A stretch of DNA of 64,000 nucleotides from an uncultured Armatimonadota bacterium (GTDB taxonomy: Bacteria; Armatimonadota; Armatimonadia; Armatimonadales; Armatimonadaceae), in contig CAIVZM010000034.1 in the NCBI GenBank assembly GCA_903910385.1, positions 1-64,000 on the forward strand, given 5' to 3'. Made by a program: the position numbers and the translations under genes. Shown here one piece after another: positions 34,343-36,272 of this stretch. Positions within the stretch are counted from its first letter, which is position 1, and each line of letters begins with the position of its first letter. A model generated the notes under the pieces. That model saw only the letters and a program-made list of their open reading frames with translations. It was not told where the DNA came from and ran no database searches.

Positions 34343-34865
34343 ATGAAAGTCACCTCCGCCGCCGAAGGAAAACGCCTCGGCATATATTTGCTGATTCCTG
34401 GTCTGGCTCTGCTAATGACAGCGGGCTACATCGCGTTCCGTGAACTACGTTTCCGAACGGTAGCGGTTCCCGCTATCGGAAAATATACAGACGAAGGAGG
34501 ATCGCCCGTCGGCGGAGGTAGGACGTGGAACGACTACGCCCGCAACTACCAGATGAAGAGGATCGCCCGTCGGCGGAGGTAGGACGATATTCACATATTA
34601 CATTACCTATAAATCGCAAGGAGGCGGTTCTTACCAATTCATTGAATCCGGGGTCACTGAGCAGTTGCCAGAAGGAAAACCTCTGGATATTCTCTACGAT
34701 CCTTCCGACCCCAAAGAGGCACGGCTTTCTACCCGCGATGGTTGGTACCTTCCACGCAATCTTGGACCTGCTGGGTTTCTGTTTACTATGCTGGGATTTG
34801 TCCTCATACGCCGACGTTCCGTGCATTCGTCCACGAATTCCCCTGAGACGACTGCCGTGAAATAA
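34343..34865 (+). pseudogene. DUF3592-like membrane protein broken by a 61-bp insertion
   Basis: The frame from 34343 encodes one membrane helix (IYLLIPGLALLMTAGYIAF) and then runs into unrelated residues and a stop at 34582. A second open frame starting inside 34525-34665 encodes LPEGKPLDILYDPSDPKEARL, a second helix and the end at 34865. Removing exactly the 61 bases between two copies of a 29-bp direct repeat joins both parts in one frame of 153 aa: GGGRTIFTYYITYKS then YQFIESGVTEQLPEG. That layout (helix, beta domain with V-x-V-LYDP-type motif, helix) fits DUF3592. Function of the family is unknown. Confidence 0.8.
34497..34586. repeat. 29-bp direct repeat pair with a 32-bp spacer
   Basis: The 29 bases at 34497-34525 recur exactly at 34558-34586 and are separated by 32 unrelated bases (34526-34557). 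The insertion of one repeat plus spacer, 61 bases, shifts the frame of the DUF3592 gene. The 29/32 sizes equal a type I-E CRISPR unit, but only two copies exist and one copy reads as part of the host gene. Confidence 0.9.
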
Positions 34866-35229: not shown

Positions 35230-35414
35230 AGAATCTGTGAAGAGACTAACACGAAGTATGTGAAAGTCTATAACAGAATGCAAACTAACGGGTTGCTGGA
35301 TGTGATTAAACGTTGAGGTTTATCAATCTCGCGCAAATGAGCATCAGATAAAATCCGGTAGTTTTTGCTCATATTTTGGTCAGGTTCATTGCCAGAATCG
35401 AAAGGAAGTCCGAG

Positions 35415-36272
35415 ATGAATCGGAAAAATCAATCTTCGCACGGCTTCACTCTTATTGAGTTGCTCGTCGTCATCGCCATCATCGCTATTCTCGCCGCTAT
35501 CCTGTTCCCCGTCTTTGCACAGGCTCGGGAGAAGGCTCGTTCTATCTCCTGTCTGTCCAATACCAAACAACTTGGCCTTTCGGTCATGATGTATGTTCAG
35601 GACTATGACGAAATGTATCCGATGCGACAAAATCCGGATCAAACCGACGCGAACGGACGATACCCACACATCTAGGAGATGCTCAGTTCGTACGTCAAAA
35701 ATGGAACCAAATCACCAGATAGCAACCCCGTTGATGGTGTCTGGTCGTGTCCTTCAGCTTCCAACCCAAAACAATCCAACCAGCTGGGATGGAATGCAGG
35801 CGTCTTCCCGGACGGCGACGCTTCCTGGAATAACCATAAAGGTGGTCCCTACATCGGAATGGCGGCAATCGATTCCCCGGCGAATATCCTCGGTCTCGCG
35901 GACAAAGGCGCTAACTCCGGTGCGGAAAACTGGATGGAAATTGTCGTCGACCAGTGGGGTTTCGCTGACGCCAGCGTCCTTAATGGGGATGGTTCGATCA
36001 ACGTCAATGCCGATACCGGTAAGTGCGCCGATGGTTCAGCTGACCCGAATGTCTGCAAAGGAGCTCTTGCCAAGGGAGTTGGCGACTGTGACCTCGCCGC
36101 CGGCTCTCAGAACTGGAACTGGGATCGTTCCTGCTTCCTTCGCCCTCGCTACCGCCACAGCGGAACCACCAACGTGACCTTCCTCGATGGTCACTCCAAA
36201 GCGGTTCAGCGCGGTAATCTGTCGTTCTCTAAGAACCTGTACATCCCGGCGCTTCACGGAAGCCTGTGGTAG
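35415..36272 (+). pseudogene. DUF1559/pseudopilin-like protein with in-frame amber codon
   Basis: The first part starts with a type IV pilin leader: short basic stretch, [17 protein letters not shown], then [16 protein letters not shown] at 35673-35675 ends the frame after 86 residues. The same frame reopens at once and runs to 36272 with a normal C-terminal part, including the H-X9-DG signature (HSGTTNVTFLDG). Reading through would give 284 residues, the normal length for the family. Homologues usually have an aromatic or Gln here, so one base change explains the stop. Such proteins are processed by prepilin peptidase and lie on the cell surface or in pseudopili. Confidence 0.9.

Follow-up and report, generated by a model that had tools for sequence, protein, structure and literature searches.

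The window analyzed here, a stretch of 64,000 nt, carries on its forward strand a DUF3592 gene interrupted by a short repeat-spacer structure. The 5' part of the gene (34343-34496, + strand) starts with an ATG and encodes a hydrophobic stretch resembling a membrane helix, while the 3' part (34587-34865, + strand) encodes most of the DUF3592 domain and a second hydrophobic stretch, and ends with a TAA stop codon. Between the two parts, and in the same orientation (+ strand), we found two copies of a perfect 29-nt direct repeat, GAGGATCGCCCGTCGGCGGAGGTAGGACG, at 34497-34525 and 34558-34586, lying 61 nt apart from start to start. They are separated by 32 unrelated nucleotides (34526-34557, + strand), here named the spacer, and the whole structure measures 90 bp. 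The coordinates and the perfect identity of the copies confirm a previous, sequence-only reading of this DNA, which had described a 29-bp repeat occurring twice with 32 unrelated bases between. Across the 64 kb of the window, no other non-adjacent exact direct repeat reaches 16 nt at a separation of up to 400 bp; by comparison, the longest repeat in 20 first-order Markov shuffles of the window, used as the chance level, was 15 nt. The repeat and the spacer are each unique in the genome when searched at up to 3 mismatches, and Rfam returned nothing relevant at the repeat-spacer site.

The interrupted DUF3592 gene

As it stands, the frame opening at 34343 reaches a stop at 34582 and encodes 79 aa. 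A length of 61 nt does not divide by 3, which is why the DUF3592 gene changes frame and ends at 79 codons, the second repeat copy throwing the downstream part out of frame. When 61 nt are removed, an open frame of 153 aa extends up to the TAA at 34865, and the joined protein matches Pfam DUF3592 (PF12158) with 28.4 bits, above the cut-off of 25.3. The upstream half of the gene alone gave no Pfam DUF3592 match, and in a search of the genome the two halves appear as separate matches with a stop between them. These results support an insertion that breaks the DUF3592 gene, in agreement with the recent 61-bp insertion that had been proposed. With most of the domain and the second hydrophobic stretch lost to the frameshift, the gene probably no longer functions. 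Neither the 18 further genomes of the class nor a scan of GTDB contigs gave a matching DUF3592 gene, and within the phylum we found remote homologues only.

A prepilin-like gene lies near the DUF3592 gene, at 35376-36272 of the window, and contains an in-frame TAG at 35673-35675, the frame being open on either side of it (ORFs 35376-35675 and 35679-36272). Either this neighbour of the DUF3592 gene is broken as well, or the TAG stems from a sequencing error.

The previous claim that deleting exactly 61 nt restores the DUF3592 gene holds for the 153-aa frame and its Pfam match, but the length is not the only one that does so. The frame is likewise reopened when only the 28 nt at 34558-34585 are taken out, giving a protein of 164 aa in which the 32-nt spacer is kept as coding sequence and which, at 27.0 bits, is still above the DUF3592 cut-off. 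Frame restoration alone is therefore no proof of a 61-nt insert. The same observation would fit a 28-bp templated insertion, by polymerase slippage or template switch, in which the 32 nt would be native coding sequence and only the second copy would be new, taken from 61 nt upstream. Consistent with this, the spacer has no stop and resembles coding sequence in the frame of the gene, where it reads W-N-D-Y-A-R-N-Y-Q-M-K, and DUF3592 proteins differ in length exactly at the interrupted loop. On the other side, the 61-nt removal scores slightly higher than the 28-nt removal, both against Pfam and against a profile of phylum homologues (55.2 vs 52.4 bits), but the two differ by only 1.4-2.8 bits because loop length is variable in the family.

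The composition of the spacer is also at odds with native coding sequence. All 11 of its third positions are G/C, a pattern foreign to the DUF3592 gene that occurs in 0 of 143 windows of the joined gene and in 0 of 1147 windows of four neighbouring genes. The 32 nt thus appear to be of foreign origin. We looked for their source in viral and genome collections by exact and by codon-degenerate patterns, in phages and plasmids by blastn, and in the organism's own genome; none of this gave a convincing match or a protospacer.

An artefact of assembly or sequencing was also considered, as the genome is a fragmented draft of 84 contigs. Contig ends share at most 141 nt, suggesting a k-mer length near 141. 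This exceeds the full 90 bp of the structure and makes an artefact arising from the 29-nt repeat unlikely. A misjoin between other regions of the assembly does not account for the structure either, since the spacer occurs nowhere else in the assembly. Taken together, we regard an artefact as very improbable.

The host type I-E CRISPR system and the 61-bp geometry

We looked in stretches of the same genome for repeat pairs of this kind and, apart from ordinary tandem repeats, recovered the two ends of a CRISPR array on contigs C3 and C8. It has a 29-nt repeat, a 32-nt spacer and a period of 61, and all 24 complete repeat-spacer units have 32-nt spacers and this period. The array is flanked by a complete type I-E operon, comprising Cas3, Cse1/Cas8e, Cse2, Cas7e, Cas5e, Cas6e, Cas1e and Cas2e (E values of 4e-111 for Cas1e and 2e-18 for Cas2e). 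Cas1e was found in the window's genome only, that is, in 1 of 12 family genomes. A second, short Cas3 HD-domain gene lies directly upstream of the full-length I-E cas3 on C3 (L045, 10030-10983). The genome also contains a second CRISPR array, on C21 (L063, 1-630), with 37-nt repeats, GTTTCAATCCTCATCCGGCCTTTCGACCGGATGCAAC, and a period of 70-76, which is apparently of a different CRISPR type.

In the E. coli I-E system, the integrated prespacer is 33 bp long and supplies the last base of the 29-nt repeat (PMC10011333), so that each integration event copies 28 bp of target and lengthens the DNA by 61 bp. The insert in the DUF3592 gene has the size expected of one I-E integration. We propose, with a probability of about 0.85, that the host's type I-E Cas1-Cas2 integrated a spacer off-target ("non-canonically") and left the 61-bp insertion as its footprint, the integrase being the putative agent. 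By analogy with E. coli I-E (PMC10011333), the register would consist of a 28-bp target at 34497-34524 and a 33-bp prespacer whose first base is G34525. Cas1-Cas2 carrying this prespacer would have attacked both ends of the 28-bp stretch within the DUF3592 gene, using it instead of the leader-proximal CRISPR repeat, and gap repair would then have duplicated the stretch on either side of the new spacer, leaving the copy at 34558-34586 as the duplicated target site. In array counting, the product would be a one-spacer "neo-CRISPR" made of a 29-nt repeat, a 32-nt spacer and a 29-nt repeat. Under this model, it is a 1-in-6 coincidence that the spacer can be read through, codon-like, in the frame of the host gene. 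The first base, G, would suit an AAG PAM in one of the four registers that are possible. The failure to find a protospacer counts against the model, but the 24 array spacers, compared with phage in view of a PAM, gave 0 matches as well.

The DUF3592 site resembles the host array on C3/C8 in its 29-nt repeat, 32-nt spacer and period of 61, whereas it differs from it in having a different repeat, no leader, a single spacer and a position inside a protein gene. More specifically, the target shows a weak likeness to the genuine repeat, with 12 of 29 positions identical, a level that 4.7% of genomic 29-mers reach. It agrees with the E. coli repeat at 17 of 29 positions, but this likeness, examined after the fact, concerns a species other than the host and was therefore left out of the evidence. 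The hairpin of the target repeat has 4 bp (-6.1 kcal/mol) and is no better than those of shuffles, compared to 7 bp (-11.7 kcal/mol) in the genuine repeat. We also compared the flanks of the target with the native leader and found no likeness, and IHF-like sites at the target showed no consistent position. With a leader-like flank absent and a weak 4-bp hairpin, the one-spacer locus is unlikely to work as a CRISPR.

Recombination that drops one repeat together with the spacer would restore the gene, making the event, like any pair of CRISPR repeats, reversible in principle, in one direction. The sequence-only reading had suggested, as one possibility, a reversible switch, with precise excision turning the gene back on. 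In such a switch the repeats would be retained so that recombination deletes or restores the 61 bp and turns the gene on and off. Direct repeats of 29 bp do flank the insert, and precise excision does restore the frame. However, deletion between the repeats cannot by itself return the spacer, the locus was seen in no relative, there is no sign of a dedicated recombinase site, and the DUF3592 gene has no known role that needs switching. The geometry, moreover, is fully accounted for by Cas1-Cas2. A phase-variable or regulatory switch is hence highly unlikely, and a programmed switch is unsupported, the geometry of the host I-E array and the other 61-periodic units of the genome, described below, fitting integration better.

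Repeats at distance 61 elsewhere in the genome

We scanned 2.25 Mb, corresponding to half of the genome and with canonical arrays left out, for 28-mers recurring at 24/28 or better at distances of 50-75 with unrelated DNA between the copies. The matches fell in 5 places at distance 61, in 1 at distance 62 and in 1 at the 15 other non-multiple-of-3 distances combined; the multiple-of-3 distances look filled mainly by coding tandem repeats. Taking the rate from the other non-multiple-of-3 distances, the Poisson probability of at least 5 matches at distance 61 is ~1e-8, a value that overstates independence because 4 of the 5 places sit in REP clusters. A single match at distance 61 has a Poisson probability of 0.06. 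Beyond these distance statistics, the case gains from the perfect repeat and the exact 29/32 split at the DUF3592 gene. As the scan covered half of the genome, further footprints are possible in the remainder.

The other five places of the scan (4 at distance 61 and 1 at 62) are formed by a REP-like palindrome, ATTCCCCCGCTTGCGGGGGTTAGGG. On contig C46 (L088, 1744-2025), the palindrome occurs as a direct triplet at 1748, 1809 and 1870, with spacings of 61 and 61 and unrelated 32-nt inserts. Two further 61-periodic triplets of the palindrome, also with unrelated 32-nt inserts, were observed on contig C55 (L129, 2620-2880 and 3300-3460). Where copies are well preserved, the block shared within these mini-arrays is 28-29 nt long. 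Additional palindrome copies lie at 84 and 40 nt on C46 and, as one pair in the other orientation, at 62 on C55. Some palindromes share CTATTCCCC with the genuine CRISPR repeat, and both form a strong hairpin. The mini-arrays of this genome are thus built on a palindrome of the dispersed, REP-like kind; two relatives in the family (G005 and G009) carry the same palindrome without Cas1e and, in contrast, the copies examined in them lack both the 61-nt periodicity and the unrelated 32-nt inserts that go with it.

Between the two mini-arrays of C55 (2839-3312) we noted by eye a DUF559-type endonuclease-like gene. Proteins of the DUF559 type are often found near REP-like palindromes.

The simplest reading of the mini-arrays is that Cas1-Cas2 also struck REP-like palindromes, which resemble its repeat. 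Such similar scars elsewhere suggest that the DUF3592 insertion is not the only misfire in this genome. As a live alternative, the mini-arrays may be what is left of an earlier orphan array whose repeat was related. The case for the DUF3592 gene of the window does not need them.

These data also bear on the 28-bp templated insertion, under which both the match to CRISPR geometry and the other 61-periodic places become coincidences. Weighing this together with the scores and the spacer composition, we consider a 28-bp copy beside 32 native nucleotides a serious alternative to integration, albeit one of low probability. The template-switch error raised in the sequence-only reading is accordingly not the best explanation, given the 29/32/61 geometry and the other 61-periodic units.

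Integrase specificity and comparison with known systems

A search for HU/IHF family proteins (PF00216) found none in the 12 family genomes, including that of the window (draft completeness 95%), while a control search with the same family was positive in 9 of 14 well-known genomes. The absence of the HU/IHF family is unusual for bacteria. Since IHF/HU was not found, a relaxed specificity of the integrase seems plausible. In E. coli, IHF is the specificity factor and bends the leader, and Cas1-Cas2 alone integrates in vitro at all repeats and outside arrays (PMC10011333). By analogy, an I-E system found in this member of the family only, and operating where IHF/HU is apparently lacking, could be poor in its choice of targets, although another bending protein may serve in place of IHF/HU.

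Off-target integration into non-array DNA has been described in vivo upon overexpression of Cas1-Cas2 in E. coli (Nivala 2018, cited in PMC11788318 and PMC9456107). The non-canonical integration in that system is like ours in that a spacer enters non-array chromosomal DNA, a repeat-sized target is duplicated and a one-spacer neo-CRISPR results. It differs in being produced by overexpression in E. coli, whereas the case presented here is natural, breaks a coding gene and comes from a host family apparently without IHF/HU. Ectopic acquisition in the type II-A system of Streptococcus (e.g. PMC7999890) is likewise an integration away from the leader-proximal position; there, however, it still takes place within the CRISPR array, while here it would have hit an unrelated gene. 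So far, off-target integration has mostly been seen under laboratory overexpression of Cas1-Cas2. A few putative natural cases in other species are reportedly contained in the work of Nivala, Shipman and Church of 2018 (Nat Microbiol 3:310).

In summary, the DUF3592 locus would represent a new, natural and gene-breaking case of I-E integration, accompanied by several similar scars in the same genome and plausibly explained by the apparent lack of IHF/HU. Two questions become testable with it: how frequently a host is mutated by its CRISPR integrase, and whether, in the absence of IHF, REP-like palindromes can seed CRISPR arrays. The locus also provides a simple signature for scars in other I-E genomes, namely a 28/29-nt repeat around a 32/33-nt unrelated insert with a period of 61. 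We tentatively suggest, at somewhat less than even odds, that a horizontally acquired I-E system in a lineage without IHF/HU has a promiscuous integrase, which would mutate genes and repeatedly turn REP-like palindromes into 61-periodic CRISPR-like arrays. If true, this would illustrate a natural route to new CRISPR loci and repeats.
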